From: Peristeroidobacter agariperforans
GTDB lineage: Bacteria; Pseudomonadota; Gammaproteobacteria; Steroidobacterales; Steroidobacteraceae
DNA length: 64,000 nucleotides
Assembly: GCF_004138335.1 (NCBI RefSeq)
Contig: NZ_RYFW01000001.1
Span: 558,001 to 622,000, forward strand
Direction of reading: 5' to 3'
Both the position numbers and the translations under genes were made by a program. The notes under the pieces were generated by a model. It saw only the letters and a program-made list of their open reading frames with translations, was not told the DNA's origin and did no database searches. Of the stretch, positions 46,404 through 61,776 are shown in pieces. The first letter of the stretch is position 1. The number at the start of each line of letters is the position of its first letter.

Positions 46404-47168
46404 TTAGCGCGCGAGCCACCCACCGTCGACCGGAAGAATCGTCCCGTGCACGTAATCAGACGCAGCCGAGGAAAGAAACACCGCCGCGCCTCCCAAGTCC
46501 GATGGCTTCCCCCAGCGGCCAGCAGGAATGCGATTCAGGATGTCTTTATTCCGTTGCTCATCCGCCCGAAGCGCCGTCGTGTTGTTTGTTTCGAAGTAAC
46601 CCGGCGCGATGGCATTCACGTTGATGCCATACCCGGCCCACTCATTCGCCAACAAGCGGGTCACGCCTGCGATACCACTCTTGCTCGCCGTGTAGGACGC
46701 CGTGCGGATGCCGCCTTGGAAAGACAGCATCGATGCGATGTTGATGATCTTGCCGCCCCGCCCCGCATTCACCATGGATTGCGCCACGGCCTGCGCCAGG
46801 AAGAACGGCGTCTTCAAATTCACATTGAGCGCCGCGTCCCAATCCTGTTCCGTGAACACCAGCGCGTCGTTGCGACGGATGATGCCGGCGTTGTTGATCA
46901 GGATGTCGACCCGACCGGCCGCGTCGATGGCGCGGGCCACGACTTGATGCGCTTCATGGCTGCGCTCCAGATCGGCGTATAGCGAATGAAATTTGCGGCC
47001 GGCGGCAACGACGCCTCTTTCGGTATCGACCGTGCTGGAGCGGGCGATGCCGACGATGTCGGCGCCGGCTTGCGCCAGCGCGACGGCGATGCCCTGTCCC
47101 AGGCCGGTGTTGGCGCCGGTGACCAGCGCCACTTTGCCAGCGAGAGAAAACGAAACGGGTTGGCTCAT
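46404..47168 (-). CDS. kduD: 2-dehydro-3-deoxy-D-gluconate 5-dehydrogenase (KduD)
   Basis: The 254-residue short-chain dehydrogenase reduces 2,5-diketo-3-deoxygluconate to 2-keto-3-deoxygluconate with NAD(P)H. It has the cofactor loop TGANTGLGQG, NNAGIIRR, the catalytic Ser in NIASM, YTASKSG (Tyr/Lys) and the KduD-type ending INVNAIAPGYFETNNTTALRADEQRN with RIPAGRWG. It is the last gene of uxaC–kduI–kduD, one base after kduI. It completes conversion of unsaturated uronates released by pectate lyases. Confidence 0.95.
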   Translation of the reverse strand: MSQPVSFSLAGKVALVTGANTGLGQGIAVALAQAGADIVGIARSSTVDTERGVVAAGRKFHSLYADLERSHEAHQVVARAIDAAGRVDILINNAGIIRRNDALVFTEQDWDAALNVNLKTPFFLAQAVAQSMVNAGRGGKIINIASMLSFQGGIRTASYTASKSGIAGVTRLLANEWAGYGINVNAIAPGYFETNNTTALRADEQRNKDILNRIPAGRWGKPSDLGGAAVFLSSAASDYVHGTILPVDGGWLAR

Positions 47169-47169
47169 G

Positions 47170-48021
47170 TTATTGCAGCTGGCAGATGTCGAGAACGTTC
47201 ATGTCGGTGTAGTCCAGGTTCTCGCCGCCCATGGCCCAGATGAAGCTGTAGTTGCGAGTGCCCGCGCCCATGTGGATGGACCATGGCGGCGACATCACGG
47301 CCTCTTCGTTGCCGATCACGAGACTGCGCATCTCGTCCGGCTCGCCCATGAAGTGCATGACGCGCTGCTGATCGCCTTCCAGGTCGAAATAGAAATAAAT
47401 TTCCGAACGACGATCGTGCAGATGCGGCGGCATGGTGTTCCACACGCTGCCGGTCTTCAGCAGCGTCATGCCCAGCAGCAGCTGCGAGGACTTGCAGGTG
47501 GCCGGCACGATGTATTGATAGATCGTGCGCTCGTTCGATGTTTCCAGCGCGCCGCGCTCCAGCGGCACTGCCTTGTCGATCGAGATGTGCACGGCTTCGA
47601 AGCGTGCGTGCGCCGGCGTGGAAGCCAGGTAGAACTTGGCAGTCTCGCCGGCCTTGGCCGCTTCGAACACCACGTCCTTCGTGCCCATCGGCACATACAA
47701 ACCGTCCTTGGGCGCGAGGTTATAAACGGTGCCGTCGAGCGTCACCTTGCCGGCAGTCTTGCCGATGTTGACGACGCCCAGCTCGCGACGCTCCAGGAAC
47801 GGTTTGCCCTTTGCGGACGCCGGTTCTGTCTGCTCCGGCAGCTTCAACGCCTGGCCGGCGGCCATCGCGCCGCCAATGACGAAGCGCTCGTAGTGCGTGT
47901 AGTTCAACGTGATCTGGTTCTCTTTGAACAGATCCTGCACCAGGTAGCGCTCGCGCAGCTGCTCGGTGGTGGCCCCGGCCATCATGTCCGGGTGCGTGGC
48001 GTGATACGTTTTCTTGAACAC
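47170..48021 (-). CDS. kduI: 5-dehydro-4-deoxy-D-glucuronate isomerase (KduI)
   Basis: The 283-residue cupin isomerase converts 5-keto-4-deoxyuronate to 2,5-diketo-3-deoxygluconate. Family features: [23 protein letters not shown] at the N-terminus, the metal-site run [15 protein letters not shown] (His, His, Glu), and [24 protein letters not shown]. Length is typical. It lies 29 bp after uxaC and one base before kduD, so the three form an operon that takes both saturated and unsaturated galacturonides. Confidence 0.96.
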
Positions 48022-48050: not shown

Positions 48051-49463
48051 TCAGAGCTTGTAAGCCTGCTTCGGCAGCCGATAGGCGAGATCGCGAGCGA
48101 CTTGGGCCGCCCCGTCTTCATCGATGCGATGTTCCGCGACCAGGCGCGACAGATAGACACAATCGATACGACGCGCCAGATCGTGGCGAGCCGGAATCGA
48201 CAGGAATGCGCGCGTGTCGTCGTTGAAACCGACGGTGTTGTAAAAACCCGCGGTCTCGGTGGTGTACTCACGGAAGCGCAACATGCCTTCCGGACTATCG
48301 TGGAACCACCACGACGGGCCGAGCTTCAGCGCCGGATAATGACCGGCGAGCGGCGCGAGCTCGCGGCTGTACACCGTCTCATCCAGCGTGAACAGAATGA
48401 TGCTGAGCGACTTGCTGTTGCCGAAGCGATCCAGCAACGGGCGCAGCGCCTGCACGTACTCGGTCTTCTCCGGAATGTCCGCGCCCTTGTCGCGGCCGAA
48501 GGTCTCGAACAACCAGCGGTTGTGATTGCGGAACGCACCCGGGTGGATCTGCATCACCAGGCCGTCTTCCTCGCTCATCTTCGCCATCTCGACCAGCATG
48601 GCCGCGCGGAACAGCTCGGCATCGGCAGGCGTGAACTTGCCGGACGTGATTTTCTCGAACAGACGCTGCGCCTCGACCGGGCTCAGGTCCGCAGTGGCGG
48701 CAGTCGGATGACCGTGGTCGGTCGAAGTCGCACCGGCCTTGGCGAAATCGGCGCGGCGCTTGCGATGCGCGCTGAGATAACCTTTCCACGAGTAAACATC
48801 TTCACCCGTAATCTCGGCGAAGCGCTTCAGTGCATCCTTGAACTGCTCGTGCTCGGGATCGATCACGGCATCCGGCCGATACGCCGTGATGACGCGACCT
48901 TTCCAGCCGCTGCTCTGAATCTTGTGATGATGGTCGAGCGTATCGACCGGCGATTCGGTGGTCGCGAGCACTTCGATGTTGAAACGCTCGAACAGGGCGC
49001 GCGGACGGAATGCATCCGTTGCGAGTTTTTCGCCGATGACATCGAAGTAATGATCGGCGGTCGAAGGCTCCAGCCGCACCTTGATATCGAACACTTTGGC
49101 GAACACATAGTTCAGCCACAGCCACGACGGCGTGCCGTTGAACAGATAAAAATGCGCCGCGAACTTGCGCCACGCTTCACGTGGATTGGCATTCGACGGC
49201 CCGCGTCGGGACGCGACGCCCAGCTCGTTCAGGTCGACGCCCTGGCTGTACAACATACGAAACAAATAGTGATCCGGCGCCAGCAGCAGCTCGGTAGCGT
49301 TGCCGAACGGAGCATTGCCGGCGAACCACTGCGGATCGGTGTGGCCGTGCGGGCTCAGGATGGGCAGGTCGCGGACTTCCGCGTACAGACGGCGCGCAAT
49401 CTGTCGGACAGCCGGGTCAGCGGGGAACAGTCGGTCTTCGTGCAGATTTAACGGTGTGCTCAT
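48051..49463 (-). CDS. uxaC: glucuronate/galacturonate isomerase (UxaC)
   Basis: The 470-residue enzyme isomerises D-galacturonate to tagaturonate (and glucuronate to fructuronate). Landmarks: [21 protein letters not shown] with metal-binding His, [26 protein letters not shown], and [22 protein letters not shown] 49463 is chosen over a TTG two codons upstream. A 14-bp operator lies 43 bp before the start. It is the first gene of an operon with kduI and kduD, and its own substrate leads on to UxaA and the reductase encoded at 50865–53860. Confidence 0.96.
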
Positions 49464-49506
49464 GGGCAATGCCGGTTCACTTTTGGGGAGCGGCAGAGTA
49501 GCAAAT

Positions 49507-49520
49507 GGTAACCGGTGTCA
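49507..49520 (-). promoter_or_regulatory. LacI-type operator upstream of uxaC
   Basis: On the minus strand it reads TGACACCGGTTACC. It differs at one base from the identical sites at 50828–50841 and 54796–54809. The CG-centred ACCGGT core is typical of LacI-family operators. Confidence 0.75.
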
Positions 49521-49587
49521 TGTTCCGCCGCCAGCAATCTATTCCTCGGGAAACCTGAACCGTGCGCAAAATTCGCGCGCGACCCGC

Positions 49588-50736
49588 CTAATTGGCCGGA
49601 CGGCCGGACGACTCGCGCACCACCAGATGCGGAAAAACCGTGGTGGCGGCGACCGATGGTCCTTCGGTGCGCGAAATCTTCGAGATCAGCTTCTCTGCCG
49701 CCAACCGTCCCATGTCGCGGATCGGTTGTCTCATGGTGGTCAGGGAGGGACAAAGCCGGGAGGCCAGTGGACTGTCGTCGAAGCCAATGATGGTGAGGTC
49801 GTGCGGAATGCGCAGGCCTCGCAGATAGGCCGTGCGATAGACACCGGCCGCAGTCTCGTCATTGCCGGCGAAGATCGCGGTGGGCCGCGGCGAGCGCGAT
49901 AACAGCATTTCGGCGCAAGCTGCGCCGGATTCGAAGGTGTACGCGCCCTCTGCGATGTAATCGGGAGACAGCGTCAGGCCACGATCGGCGAGCGCGTTCG
50001 AGAAACCCTCGAGACGCTCTTGCGAAGAACGATAATTCGTCGGGCCGATGATCATGGCGATGCGCGTGTGTCCCAGCTTCGCCAGATGCTCGGCAACTTC
50101 GGCGGCGGACTGGCGATCCATGGACTGCACCAGGTTCTGCGGCTCATCGAGCGCGGCCGACAAGATGCGAATGTAGGGACAACCGATCTCGCGCAGCATG
50201 TCAGCCAGCGCATTGTTCTCCGACACCGGCGGCAGGATCAGCATGCCGTCGAGCTTCTGGCGGCCAACCAGCTGGCGAATATCGCTCAGGAATTCCGGGC
50301 TGTTGCGATCGCAGGGATGTACCACCAGCTCGTAGCCCACGCGTCGGAGCGCGCCGAGCGCGCCTTCCTGCACATTGATCACATACGGCGCGTTCGGGTT
50401 GTCATAAACCAAACCGATCAGATACGAACGGCGAAACGCGAGGCCGCGAGCCTGTGGATCCGGCGTAAAGCCCGTACTCCGAATGATCTCGGCAATGCGC
50501 GTTCGCGTTTCTTCACGCACGAACGGCGACTCGTTGATGACGCGCGAGACAGTCTTCTTCGAGACATTCGCCAGCCGGGCAATGTCGTTGATGGTGTGTT
50601 TCTTGTCGGGATTCCGGCGCACCACGGCCGGAGCCGCTTCGGGAACGGGGACGGGCCGCGTTTCGGCGACCGCGCGCACGGCAGCGGCCGGAGGAGTCGG
50701 CTGACGAGTCGCTTTTTTGGCCGATTTTTTCGCCAT
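49588..50736 (-). CDS. LacI family transcriptional regulator of hexuronate/pectin genes
   Basis: The 382-residue regulator has a LacI helix-turn-helix (TINDIARLANVSKKTVSRVINESPFV) but only from residue ~48. It is preceded by an unusual Lys/Ala/Pro-rich extension. The periplasmic-binding-protein-like effector domain follows: LIGLVYDNPNAPYV, LVGRQKLDGMLILPP, GHTRIAMIIGP, AIFAGNDETAAGVYR and IIGFDDSPLASR. It sits between uxaC and uxaA, with candidate operators on both sides, and is probably autoregulated from the shared site at 50828. The inducer is most likely a uronate or KDG, by context only. Confidence 0.93.
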   Translation of the reverse strand: MAKKSAKKATRQPTPPAAAVRAVAETRPVPVPEAAPAVVRRNPDKKHTINDIARLANVSKKTVSRVINESPFVREETRTRIAEIIRSTGFTPDPQARGLAFRRSYLIGLVYDNPNAPYVINVQEGALGALRRVGYELVVHPCDRNSPEFLSDIRQLVGRQKLDGMLILPPVSENNALADMLREIGCPYIRILSAALDEPQNLVQSMDRQSAAEVAEHLAKLGHTRIAMIIGPTNYRSSQERLEGFSNALADRGLTLSPDYIAEGAYTFESGAACAEMLLSRSPRPTAIFAGNDETAAGVYRTAYLRGLRIPHDLTIIGFDDSPLASRLCPSLTTMRQPIRDMGRLAAEKLISKISRTEGPSVAATTVFPHLVVRESSGRPAN

Positions 50737-50827
50737 CGACGAGATAACCTGCTTTAAGGTCGGGCCGCGTCAGAATACCCTGCGCGTAGGCTCGAGCGCA
50801 GTAACGGTAGCAGAACCTGGCGCCAGC

Positions 50828-50841
50828 TGACACCGGTTTCC
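50828..50841 (+). promoter_or_regulatory. LacI-type operator between lacI-like gene and uxaA
   Basis: TGACACCGGTTTCC lies 23 bp before uxaA and 91 bp before the divergent regulator gene. It is identical, base for base, to the site before the pectate lyase (54796–54809, other strand). Confidence 0.8.
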
Positions 50842-50864
50842 CGATCTGCCCCATCAGTGCCATC

Positions 50865-52394
50865 ATGCAGACCATGAACGCGCCCGCTTCTGTCAATTCT
50901 GTGCCCCCGGCCGTCTATCGAGTCTCGACCGAAGACGACGTTGCCGTAGCCTTGCGAGACCTCGCTGCGCAGGAAACCATTGCGATCGGCGACCGATCGG
51001 TGCTGGTCACCGCCGCGATCCCCCGTGGACATAAGCTGGCCATTCGCCCCGTGTCCGCGGGACAAGTCGTCCGCAAGTACGGCTGGCCGATCGGTCGAGC
51101 AACGGCCGACATTGCCGTCGGCTCGCACGTTCACTCCCATAATCTGGAAACGCTGTTGAGCGGCGCCGATGCATACGAGTTTGGCGGCTCGAGCGCAGCG
51201 ACGGCCGGCAAACCGGCAGGCAAAGGAGGTTCATTCCTGGGCTATCGTCGCGCCAATGGCAAGGTCGGCACGCGCAACGAGATCTGGATTCTGTGCACCG
51301 TCGGGTGTGTGGGCCGCACGGCCGAACGCATCGCGCGGCTCGCCGCCCAGAAATATGCCGGCCGCGTCGATAACGTCGTCGCCTTCCCTCATCAGTTCGG
51401 TTGCTCGCAGCTCGGCGGCGATCTCGATCGCACGCGCCGGTTGATTGCCGGCCTGGCGCGTCATCCGAATGCGGGTGGCGTGTTGATCCTCGGACTGGGG
51501 TGCGAATCGAATCAGCTGTCCAAGCTGCTGAGTGAGATCCCCGAGTCAGAGAAAGCGCGCATTCGTTACTTCGCCGCGCAAGCGACAGAGGACGAAACCG
51601 AAGCGGGCTTGCAGGCGGTTGAAGAGCTCGTGCAACTCGCCGAAAAGGATCAGCGAGTAGCGTGCGGCCTGGATGATCTGGTTGTCGGTTTGAAATGCGG
51701 CGGCTCCGATGGATTCAGCGGCATCACGGCGAATCCGCTGGTCGGCCGCATCGCCGATCGGGTTACTGAAGCCGGTGGCACGGCGGTGCTCACCGAGATT
51801 CCAGAGATCTTCGGAGCCGAACAGCTGTTGATGGAGCGCGCAGCGAGTCGCGAGGTATTCGATGGCATCGTGACCATCGTGAATGACTTCAAGGAATACT
51901 TCCTGCGCAACAACCAGCCGGTGCACGAGAATCCCTCGCCGGGCAACAAGGCCGGCGGCATCACGACGCTGGAAGAGAAATCCCTCGGCGCCGTGCAGAA
52001 AGGCGGCCACGCCACGGTCACCCAGGTGCTTCGCTATGGTGAGCGCACGACCAAGCCTGGACTGACGCTGCTCGAAGCGCCCGGCAACGATGGCGTTTCG
52101 TCGACGGCGCTGGTGGCAGCGGGCGCGACGATTCTGTTGTTCACCACCGGCCGCGGCACGCCGCTGGGCTTTCCGGTGCCGACACTGAAGATCAGCTCGA
52201 ACTCCGTGCTCGCCCAGCACAAATCGCACTGGATCGATTTCGACGCCGGCAAGGCGCTGACCGCCGCCGATCCCGAAGCCGTGACCGACGAGTTCCTGCA
52301 GCTGATCGTCGCCACCGCGTCCGGCCAGCCCGCACGCAACGAGCTGAACGAGCAGCGTGAAATTGCAATCTGGAAAGATGGTGTGACTCTGTGA
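50865..52394 (+). CDS. uxaA: altronate dehydratase (UxaA)
   Basis: The 509-residue enzyme dehydrates D-altronate to 2-keto-3-deoxygluconate. It has the N-terminal SAF domain (TIAIGDRSVLVTAAIPRGHKLAI … GSHVHSHNLET) and the long C-terminal domain (GYRRANGKVGTRNEIWILCTVGCVG, CSQLGGDL, GLGCESNQ, LKCGGSDGFSGITANP, LFTTGRGTPLGFPVPTLKISSN). Cysteines in CTVGCVG and GCESNQ are likely iron ligands. A second ATG nine bases downstream is possible. Its stop overlaps the GTG of the reductase gene (GTGA), so the two are translated together. This is the galacturonate branch after UxaC. Confidence 0.95.
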   Translation: MQTMNAPASVNSVPPAVYRVSTEDDVAVALRDLAAQETIAIGDRSVLVTAAIPRGHKLAIRPVSAGQVVRKYGWPIGRATADIAVGSHVHSHNLETLLSGADAYEFGGSSAATAGKPAGKGGSFLGYRRANGKVGTRNEIWILCTVGCVGRTAERIARLAAQKYAGRVDNVVAFPHQFGCSQLGGDLDRTRRLIAGLARHPNAGGVLILGLGCESNQLSKLLSEIPESEKARIRYFAAQATEDETEAGLQAVEELVQLAEKDQRVACGLDDLVVGLKCGGSDGFSGITANPLVGRIADRVTEAGGTAVLTEIPEIFGAEQLLMERAASREVFDGIVTIVNDFKEYFLRNNQPVHENPSPGNKAGGITTLEEKSLGAVQKGGHATVTQVLRYGERTTKPGLTLLEAPGNDGVSSTALVAAGATILLFTTGRGTPLGFPVPTLKISSNSVLAQHKSHWIDFDAGKALTAADPEAVTDEFLQLIVATASGQPARNELNEQREIAIWKDGVTL

Positions 52395-53860
52395 CTTTAT
52401 CGCTCGCCTCCGTCGCGGTTCTAGGCAGCCGCAACCTGAAGATTCCCGCGTACGATCGCAAAGCCGTCAGCATCGGCGTCGTGCACTTCGGGCCTGGCGC
52501 GTTCCATCGCGTGCACCAGGCTTGTTACCTCGACGATGTGCTGCACACGGATCCGCGCTGGGGCGTTTGCGAGGTCTCTTTGCACAGCACCGGCGTGCGT
52601 GACGCGCTCATGCCGCAGGATGGCCTGTACACCATCGCGATTCTCGACGCGGAATCCTCGTTCCGAGTCATCGGCTCGGTCAAGGAAGTGCTGGTGGCGC
52701 CGGAGTCGCCGGCCGCGGTGCTCGATCGCATGGTGGCCCCGACGACTTACATCGTCAGCGCGACCATCACTGAGAAGGGTTACTGCCTGAACAAGGAAGG
52801 CGGCCTCGACTTCTCTCATCCGGACATCGCTTACGACTTGAAACACCCCGAAACGCCGAAGACGTTTGTCGGATTCCTCGCGCGTGCCTTGCGCCTGCGC
52901 CATGACCGGGGCCATGAGCCGTTCAACGTCATCAGCTGCGATAACCTCGCGGATAACGGCCATCGACTGCGGCGCGCCGTGCTCGAGTTCGTCCGCTCGA
53001 GCGATCCCGGTCTCGCGGATTGGGTCGAGAAAGAAGTGACCTTCCCCTGCACGATGGTGGACAGCATCACGCCGGCGACTGACGACGCACTTCGTGCGCG
53101 AGTGAAAGATGCACTGGGCGTGGAAGATCTCTGGCCGGTGCAGCGTGAGTTCTTCTGTCAGTGGGTGATCGAAAACAAACTGCGCGGGCCGCAGCCGGAC
53201 TGGGCGTCGGTTGGCGTGACGGTGACCGATGACGTAGCTGGCTTCGAGCGTGCCAAGCTGCGTTTATTGAACGGTGCGCACTCGACGCTGGCCTACACGG
53301 GCAGCCTCGCTGGCTACGAGACGGTTTCTGCGGCGATGGGCGACACCGCGCTCGCGACGTTCGTCCGTCGCATGATGATCGAGAACATCCGTTCGGGGCT
53401 GGCGGCGCCGCAAGGATTGGATCTGGATCAATACATCGAAGCGGTGCTACGCCGATTCCGCAATCCAACGATCCGTCATTTGCTGGCGCAGATCGCGTGG
53501 GATGGCTCGCAGAAGCTGCCGTTCCGTATTCTGCCAACCATCATGGAGAACCTGGCCGCCGGTCGTTCGATTGGGCGACTGTGCGTGCCGCTCGCGGCTT
53601 GGTTTCATTTCATTCGTCGCATGACGCACGCTGAGCGTCAGATTATGGATCCGCTGGCAGCTCAGCTGAGCGAACTTGCCAAGCGATGCACCGGCGCGGC
53701 GTCAGATGTGTCGGTCTTCCTCAGCCTGGAGAAGGTGTTCAACACCGATCTGGCGCGGAATGTGACATTCCGTGCGGCGCTCGAGAATGCTTATGCGCGA
53801 CTGTCTGCGGTCGAGAGCCCCGCCCAACTCGGCGAGGCCCTGAACGGCATCGAGGCTTGA
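52391..53860 (+). CDS. mannitol dehydrogenase family uronate reductase (UxuB/UxaB role)
   Basis: The 489-residue enzyme belongs to the polyol-specific long-chain dehydrogenases. It has the NAD-binding IGVVHFGPGAFHRVHQACYLDD, SCDNLADNGHRL, FPCTMVDSITPAT, and the catalytic Lys region AKLRLLNGAHS. By sequence it is closer to mannitol dehydrogenase/fructuronate reductase (UxuB) than to classic E. coli-type tagaturonate reductase. Since it is coupled to altronate dehydratase and the isomerase is nearby, tagaturonate to altronate is the expected reaction here. It starts at GTG 52391 overlapping the uxaA stop. Specificity is therefore unsettled between the two ketouronates. Confidence 0.88.
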   Translation: MTLSLASVAVLGSRNLKIPAYDRKAVSIGVVHFGPGAFHRVHQACYLDDVLHTDPRWGVCEVSLHSTGVRDALMPQDGLYTIAILDAESSFRVIGSVKEVLVAPESPAAVLDRMVAPTTYIVSATITEKGYCLNKEGGLDFSHPDIAYDLKHPETPKTFVGFLARALRLRHDRGHEPFNVISCDNLADNGHRLRRAVLEFVRSSDPGLADWVEKEVTFPCTMVDSITPATDDALRARVKDALGVEDLWPVQREFFCQWVIENKLRGPQPDWASVGVTVTDDVAGFERAKLRLLNGAHSTLAYTGSLAGYETVSAAMGDTALATFVRRMMIENIRSGLAAPQGLDLDQYIEAVLRRFRNPTIRHLLAQIAWDGSQKLPFRILPTIMENLAAGRSIGRLCVPLAAWFHFIRRMTHAERQIMDPLAAQLSELAKRCTGAASDVSVFLSLEKVFNTDLARNVTFRAALENAYARLSAVESPAQLGEALNGIEA

Positions 53861-53876
53861 GGATCAGCCCTGAGGA

Positions 53877-54713
53877 TTAACGTGGCGCGCCGGCCAAATA
53901 CGGACCGGCGCGAACCGCGCGGCATTCGACTTCGCCACAACCTTCGAACACCAGTCGCGACTGCTGGCCGCTGCGAATGTCGTGCACGCCGGTGATAGCG
54001 CCAGTAGAAATGTAATCGCCAGCACGCAGCGGACGACCCCGCTCTGCGCATTTGCTCAGCGCGAACGCCAAAGCGCCCAGCGCGCCCTGGCGGATGAATG
54101 CAGTGCCACGGCCCACGAAGCCGTCATCGATGAACGTCAGCGCGACGATCTCCTCGATGGAGCGCCATTCGCCAATGCTCGCGCCCACGATCACGCCCCA
54201 GTTGTTGCCAAAATCGGAGATCACGGCGCCCGGCCCGAGCTCGTTCAGCGTTGCGAGCGGGCTGACTGCGGTTTCAACACCTAAGTGGAAGCTGCGGACC
54301 AACTCCGCGGCTTCATCGATGCTCCAGACCTTCTTATCGGCCGGCGCATCCTCATTCACACGCAGCACGATCTCCGCTTCCACCGCACCGAAGCCGCCTT
54401 CGATGACGGGAAAATCCACGACCTGACCGACCCGAGCGGTGTGCAGATTCCGCGAGAACACCGGCCCGACCAAACGCTCTTCGGGAAAGCGTTGAGCGAA
54501 TGCCGCGCCGATGCGCGCGACTTTCCAACCGACGATCTGGTCGGGAAAGCGATCGATCGCCAGCTCCTGGCAACGATATGCATCGGCCAAGGTCGTAGGC
54601 ACGATGCCCGGATACTGCATTAACGATTGTCCGGCCAGACGCGCCCGGACAAACTGCTCAGCAATCATTTCGGCGCCGTCGGCCGGCAACCCGTGCAACA
54701 CCGCGCTACTCAT
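53877..54713 (-). CDS. 2-keto-4-pentenoate hydratase/decarboxylase-like protein
   Basis: The 278-residue product belongs to the MhpD/DmpE/DmpH fold: TLADAYRCQELAIDRF, IVGWKVA, the metal-binding Glu pattern GFGAVEAEIVLRV, SFHLGVETAVSP, and a GDYISTGAITGVHDIRSGQ end. Members add water to, or decarboxylate, 2-keto-4-enoates. ATG 54713 has GAGGAA 9 nt upstream; a TTG start seven codons earlier is less likely. It is divergent from the pectate lyase, whose operator lies between them. Its substrate in this uronate context is unknown; a dehydration step on a 2-keto-3-deoxy acid is one possibility. Confidence 0.85.
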   Translation of the reverse strand: MSSAVLHGLPADGAEMIAEQFVRARLAGQSLMQYPGIVPTTLADAYRCQELAIDRFPDQIVGWKVARIGAAFAQRFPEERLVGPVFSRNLHTARVGQVVDFPVIEGGFGAVEAEIVLRVNEDAPADKKVWSIDEAAELVRSFHLGVETAVSPLATLNELGPGAVISDFGNNWGVIVGASIGEWRSIEEIVALTFIDDGFVGRGTAFIRQGALGALAFALSKCAERGRPLRAGDYISTGAITGVHDIRSGQQSRLVFEGCGEVECRAVRAGPYLAGAPR

Positions 54714-54795
54714 GTCGCAGTATTCCTCTTGCAAACATTAAATTCACGATAGCGGCGGCCGCAAAGACCCCGCGAGATGCTAAAAACTGTATATA

Positions 54796-54809
54796 GGAAA
54801 CCGGTGTCA
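54796..54809 (-). promoter_or_regulatory. LacI-type operator before pectate lyase
   Basis: On the minus strand TGACACCGGTTTCC, identical to the uxaA site. It lies 45 bp before the lyase ATG, immediately after a possible −10 (TATATA, 54790–54795 region), and 82 bp before the divergent hydratase gene. Confidence 0.8.
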
Positions 54810-54854
54810 TTTACAATCCACGGCGCTCACACCAAGTCCATCTCAGGGGGTCCG

Positions 54855-56162
54855 ATGCTCGTCAAGCCGTTGTCGCTGCGATCTAAATTAGCCTCGCTGC
54901 TCTTATTGTTAACCGCAGTCACGTCGCTCGCGGCGGCCGACAATCTGCTGGCGTTCCCCGGCGCCTTGGGAGCCGCGGCGCAAACTCCGGGCGGCCGGGG
55001 CGGCAAGATCATCCGTGTCACCACGCTCGATGCCACCGGTCCAGGCTCGCTGCTCGAAGCGCTGGAAACCAAAGGTCCGCGCATCGTCGTGTTCGAAGTC
55101 GGCGGCGTGATCGACATGCAGAAACATGAGATCAAGATCAAGGAGCCGTTCCTCACGGTCGCGGGACAAACCGCGCCCTCCCCGGGCATCACGATCATTC
55201 GCACCGGCATCGACGTACTCACTCACGACGTGATCCTCCAGCACATTCGCGTGCGCACCGGGTCCGCCGGCGCCGAGCCGCGCAAAGGCTGGGAGCCCGA
55301 CGCGTTCTCCACGATCGGGGCTTACAACGTCATCGTTGACCACTGCTCCATGACCTGGGCCGTCGACGAAAATCTCTCGGCGTCGGGCCCGCGCTTCACG
55401 GGCAAGACGGTCGAAGAATGGCGTAAGGGCACGTCCCACGCCATCACGTTCAGCAACAACATCATTGCCGAAGGACTGCGTCACTCGACCCATTCCAAGG
55501 GCGAGCATTCCAAAGGCTCGCTGATTCACGACAACGCCAGCGACATTCTGATCATCAACAACCTGTACGCGCACAACCACGAGCGCAACCCGCTGTTCAA
55601 AGGCGGCGTGCACGGCATGGTGATCAACAATCTGATCTACAACCCAGGGCCGCGAGCGGTTCACTACAACTTGATCGCCGAAGAATGGCGCGGCCAGCAA
55701 TACCAGAACGGCAAGCTGGCACTGATCGGCAATGTGCTGCGCGGCGGCCCGTCGACGCCGGCGCATCTGCCGCTGTTGATGCTGGGTGGCTCGGGCGATC
55801 TGGAATATTACGAAGCCGACAACATCGCCGTGGACTGGACCGGCCAGGAGTTGCCCAAGTTCGGCCGGTACACGAACTCATCGGCAAAGCTCATCCCGAT
55901 GGCAAAGCCGGCGCTGCCGTTTGGCGTTCAGCCGCTCGCTGCAGGCGAAGTTCAGGATGCTGTGATTCGTGATGCTGGCGCGCGCCCGTGGGATCGCGAT
56001 CCAGTCGATGCACGCATCGTCGCGGACACCATCGAAGGCCGCGGCGAAATCATCGACAGCGAAAATGATGTCGGCGGCTATCCCGCGTACAAAGAGACTC
56101 GCCAGAAGTTCGATGAGAAGAATTGGGACCTGCGGTATATGACGCCGCGGGACAAGAAATAG
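54855..56162 (+). CDS. exported pectate lyase-like polysaccharide lyase
   Basis: ATG 54855 gives a signal peptide (LASLLLLLTAVTSLAAA) and has AGGGGG 4 nt upstream; longer frames upstream run through the operator. The 435-residue mature enzyme is a parallel beta-helix of the pectate-lyase superfamily: FPGALGAAAQTPGGRGGKI, VFEVGGVIDM, FLTVAGQTAPSPGITI, ILQHIRVRTG, and a VDHCSMTWAVDEN turn that supplies Ca-binding acids. Asn ladders occur in ITFSNNIIAEGL and ILIINNLYAHN. It should beta-eliminate polygalacturonate, giving unsaturated oligomers for KduI/KduD. It converges on the esterase operon. Confidence 0.9.
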   Translation: MLVKPLSLRSKLASLLLLLTAVTSLAAADNLLAFPGALGAAAQTPGGRGGKIIRVTTLDATGPGSLLEALETKGPRIVVFEVGGVIDMQKHEIKIKEPFLTVAGQTAPSPGITIIRTGIDVLTHDVILQHIRVRTGSAGAEPRKGWEPDAFSTIGAYNVIVDHCSMTWAVDENLSASGPRFTGKTVEEWRKGTSHAITFSNNIIAEGLRHSTHSKGEHSKGSLIHDNASDILIINNLYAHNHERNPLFKGGVHGMVINNLIYNPGPRAVHYNLIAEEWRGQQYQNGKLALIGNVLRGGPSTPAHLPLLMLGGSGDLEYYEADNIAVDWTGQELPKFGRYTNSSAKLIPMAKPALPFGVQPLAAGEVQDAVIRDAGARPWDRDPVDARIVADTIEGRGEIIDSENDVGGYPAYKETRQKFDEKNWDLRYMTPRDKK

Positions 56163-56208: not shown

Positions 56209-57786
56209 TCAGTACGTGCCGCGCTGAATATAGGGCACCTGCGCAAACAGCTTCCGCTCCTCGCCTCGAGGATCGTTGACCAGCTGGGACTTCACGTCGA
56301 ACACCATGGTCGCGCGCGACGGCAGCTCATACGGCTTCCACTCGGGAATGCCGGCGTGCGCCGGGTTGCCAGTGCGAGCAAAGGCGATGAAAGCTTCACT
56401 CATCTGATCCGCCGTCTGCTGCGCATCCGCACCTTGGCCCGATAGCGAGCCTGGCTGAGCGATGTTGTCGAACACCAGTGGAATATCCATCGTGTGCATC
56501 GCGCCGTATCGGCCATTCTCGAGCGGTGACCGATAGTTCAGCTGATACGCATACGCCGGCGAGCCTTGCGCCGCTCGCAACTCCGCTTCGATCACCGCGC
56601 CACGCCACGATCGTCCTGCCGTCGTCGCGGCAAAGAACACTTCCGTCGCGGAATATTTCGGATACAGCTTGCGGTACTCGGCGATGACGTACTCGGGCTG
56701 GATGTCCACGTGCAATTGCGGCAGCAGGCGCTCAGGCAGCTCTTCCCACGTCAGATCTTCCACGCCCGGCTCGTTGCCGAGAAACGCACGCGTCTCGTCG
56801 AGCGTATTGCCGATGATCATCGGAATGCTTGCAGCCAGCGGCGGTGCATCCGGATAGAACGGATGGCGCGGCAGCGCCGAATGATCGAGCACTGGACCGA
56901 AATAGATATTGCGCCCGACCATTGAGGGATCGTTCGCGCGAGTCGCGGCGACCAGGTCGGCGGTCGGCACATCGTTGAGCTTCGCGGCGTCGGACGGCGC
57001 AATCTTCAATGTTTCCAAGATCGTCCGCGCACGCTGAGTTGCCCCGCGAGGGCCGGCAGCGGTGATCTGCTGTCCGCTCATCGTCGCGGCTCGGTGGAAG
57101 GAGCTTTTCGCAGCGGGCATCGCCATCAATGTCGCGATCTTTGCGCCCCCGCCCGACTGGCCGAACACCATGATGCGCTGTGGATCGCCGCCAATCGCTT
57201 CGGCGTGATCGCGCACCCAGGCAAGCGCTTGCACCAGATCGAGAATGCCGACGTTGCCCGACGACGCGTACTTCGGCCCGGCGAGCCGCGCAAGATACAA
57301 ATGACCGAATGCGTTCAGGCGATGATTGACAGTGATCACCACGACATCGCCGCGTTGACACAGCCGTGTGCCGTCGTACAGCGCACTCGATCCCGAGCCA
57401 CTGCTGAACTCACCGCCGTGGAAATAAACCATCACGGGCCGCTTGCCGCCGTCTTTCAACGCCGGCGTCCATACGTTGAGAACCAGGCAGTCCTCGCTCA
57501 TCTGCTCGCGCGAGCCAGGCTGTGGACAAGACGGGCCGTAGTGCAACGCGTCTCGCGTCTGCTTCCAGGCGACCGGAAGCTGCGGTGGCAGGAAACGTGT
57601 AGCGCGAGTATCGGCACCGTAAGGAATGCCCTTGAAGACGTGCACGCCCTGCGCTTTGACGCCCGCGACTTTGCCTGCCCGTGTTGGCAGGATGCTGCTC
57701 TTGCCAACAGCCGCGTGAACAACAGCTGCCAGACCGAACCCGCCAGCCGCCAACAGCGAGCTACTCAGCAACTCGCGTCGGTTCAC
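56209..57786 (-). CDS. type-B carboxylesterase, Tat-exported
   Basis: The 525-residue enzyme starts at GTG 57786, which overlaps the stop of the upstream hydrolase (GTGA). The N-terminus [22 protein letters not shown] is a twin-arginine signal. Catalytic features: [11 protein letters not shown], oxyanion [11 protein letters not shown], the nucleophile elbow [10 protein letters not shown], and His in [11 protein letters not shown]. It probably removes acetyl, methyl or feruloyl esters from pectin in the periplasm or outside. It is the last gene of the TonB receptor/lyase operon. The same RRELLSS export motif occurs in the GH43 protein of this operon. Confidence 0.92.
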
Positions 57787-58712
57787 GAGATCCAGCCCTG
57801 ACTCTGCAGCCATTGCCGGCAACGATCGATCCAGCGATCGCCGGTCGTGGCATTGTTCAGGCCATAACCATGACCGCCGGCCGGATAAATCATGAGCTCC
57901 GCAGGAATCTTGTGGGCCTGCAATGCCTGGAAGAAAACAATGCTGTTTGCGACCGGCACCGTCTGGTCATCTGCCGCGTGGACCAGGAATGTCGGCGGTG
58001 TCTCGCTCGTCACAGACAACTCCGCCGAGAAGCGCTTCATATCGTCCTTTGATGGCGTGGTTCCCAACAGCTGCTGCCGCGAACCCCAGTGCACGGTCGA
58101 TTCGGTGAATGTGATGACGGGATAGATCAGCATCAGAAAATCGGGACGCACATCGGCGCTCTTCCACTGAGACAGCACCGGACTGTTGAACAACGTGCCC
58201 GTCGTGGCAGCGAGATGGCCGCCGGCAGAGAACCCGATGACTCCAATGCGCTTCGGATCGATCTGCCATTTCTCCGCATCACGCCGCACGGTCGCAACGG
58301 CCTGCTGAGCATCCTGCAATGGGCCGGTGCGCTTGTCCTTCATGTGCTTGTCGCTGGGCGTTCGATACTTCACGACGAACGCCGTGACGCCCATGTCGTT
58401 GAAGGCGCGCGCCACGTCGTAACCTTCCTTCAGGATCGACGTGCCGCGATAACCACCTCCCGGCAGGATGACAACCGCGGCTCGCTTCGGATCCTGCTTT
58501 GCCGGGCGATATGCCGTGATCGTGGGACGAGAGGTGTTCTGGAGGAACGGCCACGGCTCCTTTGGATCGCGCAGCGACTCCTCGTCGGGAGCCGCGATCG
58601 CGCCGGGAATATCGCCCGAGTACAACGGCTGCGCGGGCGGCTCGGCCGCGTCGACTGATGTGATCAGAGCCAGCCATCCGAACCAACCCAGCACGCTCTT
58701 GTTGGAAATCAT
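57783..58712 (-). CDS. exported alpha/beta-hydrolase, acetyl-esterase-like
   Basis: The 309-residue product has a signal peptide ([16 protein letters not shown]). Its esterase/lipase fold is common in pectin and xylan loci: [21 protein letters not shown] with the oxyanion [12 protein letters not shown], nucleophile [10 protein letters not shown], the Asp in [11 protein letters not shown] and His in GGHGYGL. It probably deacetylates pectin or xylan. The ATG overlaps the GH43 stop (ATGA) and its stop overlaps the carboxylesterase GTG, so the three are tightly coupled. Confidence 0.9.
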
Positions 58713-60340
58713 GACTTCGCGGAATCCTCCAGCGCCTCATAGCGCATATCACGAAACACTGCCGCGCCCTGCCCCGCCACATACAGAGCCGGCCGCAGGC
58801 TGAGGAAGTCGCCGGCCACGTTGTGGTGATAGCCCGAGACTTCCATCTGCACGTCGTACTTCTTCCACTGCTTGCCGTCGAGGCTGTGGCGAATCGTGAC
58901 GATGTGTCGATCGTTTTCGATCTGCAGGTGCAGCCGACGCTCCACGCCCGGCGGCATCTTGCCACGACGCTCCAGGCCGTACCGGTGCATGGTCAAGCCG
59001 CGGGCGTCGAAGCCCAGGCCACAATACAGACGCTTGCTGTAGAACAACAGCAGCCCGGCCTGCGCGTCGCCTTCGAGCTCGATATCGACCGTCACTCGAT
59101 AGGCGGTGTCCGGCGTAATGAAAGACATCGGCGAGCAGTCATTCGGCTGCGAGCCCTTGCCGGTCACACGTAGCGCCTTGGCCTGGTACTGCACGCGGGA
59201 CATTTCATTCGGGCCCGGATTGTAGAAGCCCCACAGCACGCCGAAACGATTGCTGGAGAAATCATCCGACAACGGCATGCCGTTGGGGGACGGCTTGCCC
59301 TGCGCCGGCTTCGCGATGGGTTGAGACAGATCGCCGCCTTTCGCACCGAACCAGCCGTCCTTGGTCCATTCCACCGGATCGAGCAGCGTCTGGCGTCCCA
59401 GCGTCCAGAAGCCGTTCTCGTAGCCGTGATAAACCATCCACCAATCGCCGGCCGGCCCTTCGACCAGCGTGGCATGTCCGCGCGACCACCATTTTTCTTT
59501 GGCTGAATGCGTGCGAACGATGGGATTCGCAGGATCGTTCTCCCACGGACCGTGAATGGATCTGGAGCGGGCGACGATCACCATGTGCCCGGTCGGCGGC
59601 CCGGCGGTGCCACCGACGGCGGTGATCATGTAGAAGTACTGGCCATGCCGCATGACCTTCGGGCCTTCGGGCGCGAAGCCTTCGACCACCCAGTCTTCGG
59701 GATAGCGCCACGGATCGTACACGTGCTCGACCGGCCCATCGGTCTTCAGACCGTCGTCGGTCAGTCGCACGCGATCGCCGCCGCTTAGAAACAAATAGCG
59801 CTTGCCATCCTCGCCGACCACATGACCGGGATCGATGTGACCCGGCAGATCCAGATCGATGGGATCGCTCCACGGTCCGCGGATGTTATCGGCGTGAATC
59901 ACATACGTCGACTTGCGATCCGGCCAGCGCGCCGGAATGTAGATGTAGTAGCGGCCCTTATGCTTGATGAGCTCGCACGCCCACACTGAGCCGATCGGTT
60001 TGGTGAGCGCCGCCACGACCGGCTGCCAGTTCACCAGGTCGCGCGAATGCCAGATCACGACGCCCGGATAGGCGTCGAACGACGAGAACGTCATGTAGTA
60101 ATCGTCGCCGTCCTTGAGAATCGTCGGATCGGCGTGATCGCCCGCCACAATGGGATTGAGGAACGTGCCATCGCCCAGATCGGCCTGCCGTTGTCCCTCG
60201 ATGCCTCGTCGCCACGTCTTCGACGGCGTCTTCTCGTCGTTCGCACAGGGGGCCGCACCTTGTGCAGCGACGGGAATCGTTCCCGCTGCCGCGCCCAGAA
60301 TTGCTGAGCTCAACAGCTCGCGTCGACTGATTTCTGTCAT
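58709..60340 (-). CDS. glycoside hydrolase family 43, Tat-exported
   Basis: ATG 60340 has GAGGGG upstream and gives MTEISRRELLSSAIL, a twin-arginine signal. The 543-residue enzyme has a five-blade propeller: IVAGDHADPTI with the catalytic base Asp, SSFDAYPGVVIWHS, VWACELIKHKGRYYIY and EGPKVMRHGQYFYMITA with the acid Glu. After ~residue 340 a beta-sandwich domain (DDFSSNRFGVLWGFYNPG) follows. GH43 members are arabinofuranosidases, arabinanases or xylosidases; side-chain removal from pectic arabinan is the likely use here. It lies between the PL1 lyase and the two esterases. Confidence 0.9.
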   Translation of the reverse strand: MTEISRRELLSSAILGAAAGTIPVAAQGAAPCANDEKTPSKTWRRGIEGQRQADLGDGTFLNPIVAGDHADPTILKDGDDYYMTFSSFDAYPGVVIWHSRDLVNWQPVVAALTKPIGSVWACELIKHKGRYYIYIPARWPDRKSTYVIHADNIRGPWSDPIDLDLPGHIDPGHVVGEDGKRYLFLSGGDRVRLTDDGLKTDGPVEHVYDPWRYPEDWVVEGFAPEGPKVMRHGQYFYMITAVGGTAGPPTGHMVIVARSRSIHGPWENDPANPIVRTHSAKEKWWSRGHATLVEGPAGDWWMVYHGYENGFWTLGRQTLLDPVEWTKDGWFGAKGGDLSQPIAKPAQGKPSPNGMPLSDDFSSNRFGVLWGFYNPGPNEMSRVQYQAKALRVTGKGSQPNDCSPMSFITPDTAYRVTVDIELEGDAQAGLLLFYSKRLYCGLGFDARGLTMHRYGLERRGKMPPGVERRLHLQIENDRHIVTIRHSLDGKQWKKYDVQMEVSGYHHNVAGDFLSLRPALYVAGQGAAVFRDMRYEALEDSAKS

Positions 60341-60429
60341 GTCCCCTCGATCGATAGGTGATATCGGTAACAATCCGATCCGAACGCAGGCGCCCGCGAG
60401 CGAGCGCTTGCATCAACGAGTAGCTGGCC

Positions 60430-61776
60430 TCACCAGAACATCGGTCCCGCGAACAGCAGCACCGTCAGCGCCGTGGTCCACACCGGCGACAACTGATAAT
60501 TCAACTCGGGCACCCAGCCCGCATCCGCGCCCAGGTCGGGATCGTTGCTGTCATTCCAGGCAGCGATGACGTCGACCGGATTGCGCACGGGCGGCCCGAC
60601 GAGCAGCGTGCCCGACGCGGACAATGCCGTGCCGTTGAAGCGGTCCAGAATCTGGTCCGGCGTAAAACTGCGCGGCGCGAGAAAGAAATTTTCTTCCGCA
60701 TAGATCGCCGACTCGATACCCACGCCCCAACTGTACTGGTAGTTGGGCGTGTTACGCACATCGTAGAAGTTGTTATAAACGTGGACCTGCCCGAAGCGTA
60801 CGCGCGGCACACGCTGGCCGACCCGCTCGAACAGGTTGTGGTGCAACGTGACTCGCAACTTACCGCGATCGGCGGCGGCACTGTCGGAAGAGCCGATCAG
60901 CATCACCTTGTCGTGATTGCGGAAGCGGTTCCAGGAGACGGTGACCAGATCCGAGGCGTTGGTGATATCCAGCGCGCCGTCGTGCTGTTGGAACAGCACG
61001 CCGAAGTAGTTCGGCGCCTTGCTGTCGGCGGTGGTCTTGTCCTCGAACGTATTGTGATCGATCCAGACGTTGTTCGAGTCGCGCAACGAAATCGAATCGT
61101 ACAGCGCGTTCCAGGCGCCGAGCGAGCCATCGGTCGGCGACCACTGCGGGAAGCAGTCGTAGGTGTCCTGGAATGTGATGTTGCGAATGATGATGTTGGT
61201 GCGGCTGTTGGCGACACCTGCCGTGCCGCGGACATCGATCCAAGCGCCGCGGATCGTTGCTTTGTTCCCAACACCAACGATGGTTGTATTCGAACCGACG
61301 CGAATTCGAACGCGCAACTGCTGCGCGGCCGCCGAAGCTGCGCGCGCCGACTCGAGCGGACCCGAAGGATTCACTCGGCCCCACACGGCTGGATCGTAAG
61401 TGGCAAGAAAAGCTTCCGGCGTGTAGCCGCTACTGTAGTAGTCGCTGCAACTCAGCGGCTGATTGGCATCGTCGACGTTGGCGTCGATGACCCCTTTGAC
61501 GTAGATGATCTTCGGTTCGTTGGACGGATTGGTTGGCGAGGTCGCGGACTCCACGCCGTTGTTGAGAGCTGCGATCAGCTCGCTGCGATTCGTGACGGTG
61601 TACACCTGTTCAGGTACAGCTGCAGCGCCGCCTGTGACTCCGGCGCCGCTGGCAGCCCAGCCATTCTCGGCAGGCAGCGTCTCCAGACTTGAATCCCTTC
61701 GATCGTGCGCGTTGGCCGCTACGCAGCTCGCAGCTGCAAAGAGGCATCCGGCGCGCAGTATTCCCTTCGCACGCAT
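60430..61776 (-). CDS. pectate lyase, PL1 family, exported
   Basis: The 448-residue product has a signal peptide (ILRAGCLFAAASCVAANA) and a PL1 catalytic helix: NGWAASGAGVTGGA near the start, IYVKGVIDAN, TTIVGVGNKATI, IIIRNITFQDTYDCFPQW, VWIDHNTFEDKTTA (Asp/His of the Ca site), VTVSWNRFRNHDK and VTLHHNLFERVGQRVPRVRFGQVHVYNNFYD. The last segment carries the catalytic Arg. It cleaves polygalacturonate by beta-elimination. AAGGGGG lies just before the ATG. It follows the TonB receptor gene after a 95-bp gap containing a hairpin, and leads the enzyme part of the operon. A cysteine pair in the insert (CSDYY…) may add a disulfide. Confidence 0.92.
   Translation of the reverse strand: MRAKGILRAGCLFAAASCVAANAHDRRDSSLETLPAENGWAASGAGVTGGAAAVPEQVYTVTNRSELIAALNNGVESATSPTNPSNEPKIIYVKGVIDANVDDANQPLSCSDYYSSGYTPEAFLATYDPAVWGRVNPSGPLESARAASAAAQQLRVRIRVGSNTTIVGVGNKATIRGAWIDVRGTAGVANSRTNIIIRNITFQDTYDCFPQWSPTDGSLGAWNALYDSISLRDSNNVWIDHNTFEDKTTADSKAPNYFGVLFQQHDGALDITNASDLVTVSWNRFRNHDKVMLIGSSDSAAADRGKLRVTLHHNLFERVGQRVPRVRFGQVHVYNNFYDVRNTPNYQYSWGVGIESAIYAEENFFLAPRSFTPDQILDRFNGTALSASGTLLVGPPVRNPVDVIAAWNDSNDPDLGADAGWVPELNYQLSPVWTTALTVLLFAGPMFW

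Follow-up and report, generated by a model that had tools for sequence, protein, structure and literature searches.

A Predicted LacI-Family Operator Shared by Pectin and Hexuronate Genes in Peristeroidobacter agariperforans and Its Relatives

Introduction

Three near-identical 14-bp sequences lie in a 64,000-nucleotide stretch of the Peristeroidobacter agariperforans genome (the window), in a pectin and hexuronate locus that also encodes a LacI-type regulator, which raises the question of whether they are operators of that regulator and how far its regulon extends. In enterobacteria, pectin and hexuronate genes are controlled by KdgR, an IclR-family protein released by 2-keto-3-deoxygluconate (KDG), and by UxuR and ExuR of the GntR family. 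In contrast, the window's regulator has a LacI helix-turn-helix (HTH) and belongs to a different protein family. A preliminary description had joined the three copies into a local regulon of this regulator, which was also predicted to control its own gene. We report here that the sites are, with a probability of about 0.88, operators of the LacI-family protein encoded at 49588–50736, which is predicted from sequence to repress pectin and hexuronate genes. The sites, their conservation, their target genes, and their co-occurrence and covariation with the regulator were all computed.

Results

Operator sites and regulator in the window

The copies in the uxaA–lacI interval and between the hydratase-like and pectate lyase genes are identical (TGACACCGGTTTCC), and the copy upstream of uxaC-kduI-kduD differs from them by one mismatch (TGACACCGGTTACC; Table 1), as originally reported. 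The placement of all three in promoter regions was also borne out, in that each is intergenic once the starts of uxaC (49463), the hydratase gene (54713), and the pectate lyase gene (54855) are corrected according to our reading; the last gene probably begins at this ATG, which stands behind AGGGGG, rather than at the mechanically called 54777. Each site joins a left half, TGACACC, to a right half, GGTTTCC or GGTTACC, about a central CG. The suggestion that they carry the CG-centered core of LacI-family sites holds, but none of the three is a palindrome. The accessible text of Ravcheev et al. (2014, PMC4052901) describes LacI-family motifs as palindromes.

With respect to the regulator, its HTH scores 63.1 bits against PF00356 (cut-off 27; residues 48–93), and its C-terminal effector domain exceeds the cut-offs of PF13377 and PF00532, with phmmer matches to CcpA, RbsR, and PurR structures. 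No NCBIfam equivalog matches the protein above its own cut-off, and no IclR-type features were found, as Pfam returns only LacI and periplasmic-binding domains. The closest orthologues in named records include those of Steroidobacter agaridevorans (97%), S. gossypii, Peristeroidobacter soli, and Povalibacter uvarum.

At one mismatch or fewer, the window holds 3 matches to the asymmetric 14-mer versus 0.037 expected (300 simulated sequences, none with more than one). Looser searches are far less informative: the 8 matches at up to three mismatches are unremarkable against a mean of 4.7, a count of 8 being reached in 11 of 100 shuffles, and in the whole 7.65 Mb genome 50 strand matches at up to two mismatches compare with 26 for the reversed control. 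Most two-mismatch genome matches are consequently background, and the asymmetric 14-mer alone was set aside as a genome-wide matrix.

Conservation in the window's genus

We compared the window's genome (G000) with 13 others of the same genus; the search for exact operator copies took in 15 genomes. Close orthologues of the regulator, of 70–97% identity, occur in 10 of the 13 (G001, G003, G005–G009, and G011–G013), and G022 has one of 55%, while G002, G004, and G010 have no homologue closer than 41%. Operators recur at the corresponding promoters. At uxaC or kduI they are present in 11 genomes including the window's own, nine of the ten relatives having TGACACCGGTTACC and G022 having TGACACCGGTTTCC. 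The uxaA–lacI interval has one in 8 genomes including its own (TGACACCGGTTTCC, identical in all 7 relatives), such that the autoregulatory site is found in 8 of the 11 same-genus genomes that bear the regulator. The hydratase promoter has one in 10 genomes including its own, again with TGACACCGGTTTCC identical in the 9 relatives and before an orthologous gene; runs of N occur in the locus of G006, and no site was found at its hydratase promoter. In alignments of orthologous promoters, which take in only rows with a site, 13–14 of the 14 site positions are invariant versus 0–6 of 60 flanking positions.

The operator also follows the regulator. Exact TGACACCGGTTWCC occurs 31 times in 12 regulator-bearing genomes (G013 counted with zero), every copy lying at uxaC/kduI, uxaA–lacI, hydratase–lyase, or kdgA, and not once in the 3 genomes without a close regulator orthologue. 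The kdgA case matches an expectation of the preliminary description, that a genome scan would place sites before this gene: the aldolase type is present in 4 of 18 genomes searched, and all 4 have the operator in front of it (an exact copy in G007 and G022 and a one-mismatch copy in G012 and G013). A search of the whole G000 genome gave no aldolase of this type (E <= 1e-20), though kduI, kduD, uxaA, and a KdgK-like kinase are present, and no gene was located for the KDG-phosphate aldolase step.

Conservation beyond the genus and covariation with the recognition helix

Among 369 sampled genomes of the class, 9 outside the window's genus match the regulator at E ≤ 1e-85. Exact asymmetric operators precede kduI or kduD in 5 of the 9 (G423, G071, G223, G201, and G396; the HTH of the last was not extracted by the pattern used). 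The hydratase gene likewise has an exact operator in G423 and TGACACCGGTTTAC in G071 and G223. G404 has TGCCACCGGTGGCA before both kduD and uxaA, and in G313 and G408 this palindrome occurs in near forms only.

These two groups of sites are accompanied by two forms of the recognition helix. Proteins with TGACACC sites, namely the window's and those of its relatives, read VSKKTVSR (K61, or K-type), and those of G313, G408, G426, G430, and G404 read VSKRTVSR (R61, or R-type). All five R-type genomes have sites within one mismatch of TGCCACCGGTGGCA near lacI, and none has an exact TGACACCGGTTACC in the stretches scanned; none of 30 K-type loci has a site within one mismatch of TGCCACCGGTGGCA (2 have sites at two mismatches). 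G201 belongs to the genus of four of the R-type genomes and yet is K-type with TGACACCGGTTACC; its regulator may be a paralogue, since the R-type query did not retrieve it. K61 corresponds in the alignment to residue 18 of E. coli LacI, a residue known for its part in specificity. Taken together, the sequences support a correspondence of K61 with TGACACC and R61 with TGCCACC, which would tie the operator to this regulator.

The K-type loci above come from the family of G071, in which 86 of 198 sampled genomes match the regulator at E ≤ 1e-80 (81 below 1e-100; 5 of the 86 are a weaker homologue of 42–45% only). Among the best 30 of the 86 loci, which were those examined, all are K-type, and in 26 an exact TGACACCGGTTACC lies no more than 1.5 kb from lacI. 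The gene after this site is kduI, except in one locus where the site stands before uxaC and uxaA; 25 of the sites point toward the gene, and one (L266) points away. Closer to the window's own group, three order-level relatives (G044, G057, and G047) have orthologues of 50–52% identity with the same recognition helix, palindromic sites of 1–2 mismatches at the orthologue's locus, and a site at the TonB receptor gene there. In G044 and G057, TGACACCGGTGACA lies upstream of hydratase-lacI-kduD-dctPQM genes. The identities of DctP, DctM, and TonB were checked in G057 and that of TonB in G047; the G044 genes and the hydratase, which has no Pfam match, were named by reading. Orthologues in other families, at 48–58% identity, likewise have operators next to their lacI, hydratase, or kdu genes.

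A palindromic form at lyase and TonB receptor genes

Using the palindrome TGACACCGGTGTCA at up to two mismatches, we found 36 places in the window's genome versus 7 for the reversed control, 2 of the 36 being asymmetric sites of the window. Within one mismatch there are 13 places, of which 11 precede pectate lyase or TonB genes: four lie before three PF03211 pectate lyases and seven before five TonB receptors, although 3 of these seven overlap the first bases of a mechanically called open reading frame (ORF). The other two are an intergenic place beside a gene without a Pfam match and a place inside an ORF. Two copies of TGACACCGGTGACA start 758 and 789 bases beyond the window (G000:C9:622758 and 622789), near the 5′ end of its TonB receptor gene, the first overlapping the 5′ end of the mechanically called ORF. 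This pair, 31 bp apart, is common to the receptor gene and a divergent PfkB-family KdgK-like kinase, with an aldehyde dehydrogenase next. Of the other palindrome-bearing TonB receptors, one adjoins a GH88-family gene and another a GDSL-family gene.

The palindrome is similarly linked to the presence of the regulator. In 11 relatives that have it there are 47 sites within one mismatch versus 3 for the reversed control, and in 3 relatives without it the counts are 3 and 3. Inspection of 34 of the 47 showed 28 to be intergenic and 6 to overlap mechanically called ORFs (5 within about 150 bases of the ORF 5′ end); in G004, which is without the regulator, both palindromic sites are inside ORFs. Tandem pairs are spaced, start to start, by 30 and 31 bp in the window's genome, 30 in G001, G011, and G005, 32 in G008, and 21 three times in G022. 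The accessible text of Ravcheev et al. (2014, PMC4052901) gives LacI-family spacing peaks of 13, 22, and 32 bp, the last two read as cooperative binding.

With the palindromic form, then, the genome scan proposed in the preliminary description does place hits before the KdgK-like kinase and TonB receptors. The idea of a pathway regulon stands, but the regulon is not confined to the locus, as palindromes occur genome-wide at lyases and TonB receptors. In relatives the hydratase gene is followed by a tripartite ATP-independent periplasmic (TRAP)-type transporter and not by an exuT-like gene of the kind listed for the proposed scan. A DctPQM-like transporter of this type accompanies the hydratase and lacI genes in several relatives (L067, L071, L072, L228–L230, also L118), gaps matching its size occur in L062–L064, and it is missing at the corresponding place in the window.

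Four further places lie at one mismatch in the window's genome. C10:1285815, the sole one within one mismatch of the 14-mer first described (TGACACCGGTTTCC), overlaps a short mechanically called ORF but stands 59 bases before the gene of a beta-helix protein, and may be a real site. C11:307235 and C12:326200 precede TonB receptor genes, and the same letters occur in G001 and G003, respectively (letters rather than positions being compared); these two and C10:1285815 are possible further targets. One of the two TonB genes is followed by a tryptophan-halogenase-family gene and the other is divergent from a pyrroloquinoline quinone dehydrogenase gene. The fourth place, C15:140123, precedes rimP-nusA-infB (named by reading) and was taken as chance, the same 14-mer nonetheless being present in G001 and G003. 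Other LacI-like palindromes (TGACAACGTTGTCA twice and TGATACCGGTATCA) lie at C9:1399076, C9:2241021, and C9:1820929; a LacI paralogue is about 2.7 kb away in the first case, and another is about 11 kb away in the third. They are likely separate regulons.

Promoter geometry and proposed mechanism

The interval between the hydratase and lyase genes contains a conserved block, TTGTAAA–operator–TATATACAG, which probably reads as TTGTAA/TATACA −35 and −10 boxes of the hydratase gene with 17-bp spacing and, on the opposite strand, as a TACAAT −10 box for the lyase gene. The two promoters would thus overlap at the operator, where a single dimer would be enough to block both. In the uxaC promoter, TACCAT overlaps the operator's right half. 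A different arrangement is seen in G071's family, where 23 of 26 sites have a −10 hexamer matching at least 4 of 6 positions at 16–19 bp after nTGACA (other offsets: mean 0.6, maximum 3; one reversed site, L266, dropped), which supports a left half doubling as −35 box in that family. In the window's family, a −10 hexamer at 15–19 bp follows 2 of 11 uxaC/kduI sites, 2 of 8 uxaA sites, and 0 of 3 kdgA sites, and it follows 0 of 13 hydratase sites (10 of that family and 3 of others); a −35 role for the operator in this family accordingly lacks support. Judged from these sequences, operator and core promoter elements overlap, which is what a repressor would be expected to show, but in no single fixed geometry.

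In the mechanism that we propose, a regulator dimer would bind TGNCACC–GGTNNCN around the central CG and repress the promoters that it overlaps, namely those of uxaC-kduI-kduD, of uxaA-uxuB and the regulator's own gene, and of the hydratase/pectate lyase pair, whose divergent promoters would overlap and have one operator in the spacer common to both. Through the palindromic copies, of which some form helically phased pairs, the same protein would also govern secreted pectate lyases, TonB receptors, and the KdgK-like kinase. Its release would be caused by a sugar acid derived from pectin, with a KDG-like intermediate or galacturonate as a guess from the pathway. Binding by this protein, repression over activation, and sugar-acid release are the most likely interpretation of the patterns described.

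Alternative explanations

Control by the regulator at 49588, including control of its own gene, is the prediction that best agrees with the conservation, co-occurrence, and recognition-helix covariation, and the original proposal is upheld to that extent. A number of observations nonetheless weigh against it. The lacI–uxaA site was not found in G007 or G012, and G013 has kept the regulator (70% identity) with no operator at the lacI locus and only a one-mismatch site before kdgA. G331, a K-type genome, has neither kdu genes nor a site nearby, and 4 of the 30 K-type loci lack an exact site, among them L242 and L260, which despite having kduI show only degenerate copies with 2–3 mismatches. Ancestry is a confounder of the K/R covariation, since the five R-type genomes come from two families. 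For the palindromes, inspection in relatives covered 34 of the 47 sites, one tandem pair (C10:340975/341222, 247 bp apart) is off helical phasing, and the genome has nine LacI-family genes, such that another of these proteins could bind some of them.

This last point leads to the alternative that we take most seriously while considering it unlikely, in which two regulators share one motif, the present LacI protein acting at asymmetric catabolic sites and a LacI paralogue at the lyase and TonB palindromes. Such a division would account for the way in which the two forms largely sort by target type and would draw on the nine LacI-family genes; GGTAACCGGTTACC, the mirror of the other half, moreover precedes another TonB receptor-like gene in 3 genomes. 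However, palindromic sites accompany this very orthologue elsewhere, as TGACACCGGTGACA before the hydratase-lacI-kduD-dctPQM genes of two order-level relatives and TGCCACCGGTGGCA in G404. Judged by coordinates, no LacI gene of the window's genome except this one is near a palindromic site: it is 14 kb from the pair at 622 kb, and every other site within one mismatch is >90 kb from any LacI gene. The recognition helices of the eight remaining LacI proteins also differ from that of this regulator. Palindromes also drop to background where the regulator is missing.

The remaining possibilities are far less probable. Conservation of the 14-mer as a core promoter element in the −35 region would fit the −10 hexamers spaced 16–19 bp from nTGACA in 23 of 26 cases of one other family, but the letters are kept in the window's family with so few −10 boxes, the GGTTWCC half is not generally a promoter element, and the palindrome is tied to regulator presence, which together make this explanation very improbable. 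We give an equally small chance to an unrelated regulator that binds the operator while its position beside lacI is coincidental: the conserved block at the hydratase promoter does extend to both sides of the 14-mer, yet the central CG, the palindromic variant, the close association with this lacI across several families, and the K61/R61 covariation all speak for the LacI protein. As for chance repeats in a G+C-rich genome, the asymmetric pattern is indeed mostly background at 2–3 mismatches, but the excess at one mismatch and, decisively, conservation across families refute this explanation, whose probability we regard as negligible.

Asymmetry of the operator

Copies across the genome have full or nearly full palindromic symmetry. 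The three window sites lack it and are conserved in this asymmetric form, and asymmetric catabolic sites with a GGTTTCC or GGTTACC second half occur in five families (f1, f28, f146, f158, and f195). The scans sought these exact letters and undercount looser variants, such as the degenerate copies of L242 and L260 or TTTAC in G071 and G223. Weak binding by itself would not preserve a poor half to the letter. Specific reading of both halves by the regulator is likely.

We tentatively suggest, at appreciably less than even odds, that TGACACC–GGTTWCC is an ancient non-palindromic LacI operator, retained letter-for-letter at kdu and hydratase promoters in at least five families, with both halves read and hence directional. 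As part of this same tentative suggestion, the protein would also accept a perfect palindrome, and one half would serve as −35 box in one family. If so, the broken symmetry may grade repression or spare a mirror-image −35 box; with graded repression, the genes for secreted lyases and TonB receptors would have tight palindromes, frequently in pairs, and the intracellular pathway would have one asymmetric site.

The mirror palindrome GGTAACCGGTTACC occurs once each in G000, G001, and G003, before a TonB receptor-like gene; the G000 copy, at C14:247419 (L215, L217), is a perfect palindrome directly before this gene, with similar genes in G001 and G003. The reverse half was not retained as a second palindrome, GGWAACCGGTTWCC being present once each in 3 of 15 genomes, at a TonB receptor-like gene without informative neighbors.

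Other features of the window

The original gene naming proved broadly right by NCBIfam and Pfam, with the uxaA-, uxuB-, hydratase-, and PelZ-like matches below curated cut-offs (Table 1). Between the lyase and TonB receptor genes (56209–61776), no match to the asymmetric 14-mer was found at up to three mismatches; genes there were named by reading as esterase-like, GH43-like, and second-lyase-like. Two-mismatch operator matches lie at 9669–9682 and 38833–38846.

Table 1. Predicted operators, genes, and promoter region in the window
Feature	Positions	Strand	Remarks
Operator TGACACCGGTTACC	49507–49520	−	Upstream of uxaC-kduI-kduD; 1 mismatch to TGACACCGGTTTCC
Operator TGACACCGGTTTCC	50828–50841	+	Between lacI (−) and uxaA (+); exact
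Operator TGACACCGGTTTCC	54796–54809	−	Between hydratase gene (−) and pectate lyase gene (+); exact
Probable overlapping divergent promoters around operator	54787–54817		Conserved flanking columns; consensus reading
kduD, 2-dehydro-3-deoxy-D-gluconate 5-dehydrogenase	46404–47168	−	NCBIfam TIGR01832 over cut-off
kduI, 5-dehydro-4-deoxy-D-glucuronate isomerase	47170–48021	−	NCBIfam NF002091 over cut-off
uxaC, glucuronate isomerase family	48051–49469	−	NCBIfam NF002794 over cut-off; start probably 49463
LacI-family regulator, HTH and periplasmic-binding-protein-like domain	49588–50736	−	Pfam PF00356, PF13377; recognition helix VSKKTVSRVIN
uxaA-like altronate/galactarate dehydratase	50865–52394	+	Pfam PF20629, PF04295, PF08666; galactarate dehydratase equivalog below cut-off
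uxuB/uxaB-like hexuronate reductase, mannitol dehydrogenase family	52391–53860	+	Pfam PF01232, PF08125; best NCBIfam fructuronate reductase, below cut-off
2-keto-4-pentenoate-hydratase-like protein	53877–54734	−	Weak NCBIfam match (E=2.6e-5), below cut-off; no Pfam; start probably 54713
PelZ-like pectate lyase	54777–56162	+	NCBIfam NF041900 E=1.2e-121 but below cut-off; Pfam PF00544 below cut-off
TonB-dependent receptor gene (part), continues past window end	61872–63956	−	Palindromic operators near 5′ end

Discussion

A conserved operator before hexuronate catabolic genes and before the regulator's own gene is what this system shares, at the sequence level, with LacI-type hexuronate and pectin regulators. 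As described in the accessible text of PMC4052901, the RegPrecise LacI-family hexuronate groups ExuR, KdgR, UxaR, and UxuR likewise pair a LacI-family regulator with a sugar-acid pathway and have a CG-centered even operator, divergent or autoregulatory placement, and tandem sites near 22 and 32 bp. In contrast to those groups, of which UxaR, UxuR, and KdgR are placed in Bacteroides, the operators here are non-palindromic at catabolic promoters, a comparison made by description only. UxuR2 of Algoriphagus marincola HL-49, as portrayed in the available part of PMC5507952, is also a LacI-family protein with predicted galacturonate/glucuronate control and a TRAP transporter, but it comes from another organism group and no TonB or pectate lyase regulon is described for it there. 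The accessible text of PMC1790865 reports carbohydrate utilization loci containing TonB-dependent transporters (CUT loci) in Xanthomonas campestris, where TonB receptor genes are similarly grouped with degradative enzymes, a LacI-family repressor, SuxR, acts at the sucrose locus, and some TonB genes are induced by polygalacturonate; unlike here, no regulator is named in that text for the pectin locus. Literature searches with the literal motif strings gave one match, a paper on an unrelated human protein. Among the matches listed in the other literature searches, no title concerned this regulator.

The sequence comparisons give good support to a LacI regulon for pectin and hexuronate use that is ordinary in kind but wider and more deeply conserved than first seen; its unusual point is the non-palindromic operator kept across five families. 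For pectin use in Steroidobacter relatives, and by orthology in G071's family as well, the predictions name a regulator, its operator, and a list of targets across the genome. TonB receptors of unknown substrate gain a predicted one, pectin fragments. Finally, the K61/R61 switch and the retained asymmetry would offer clean cases for how LacI proteins read half-sites.

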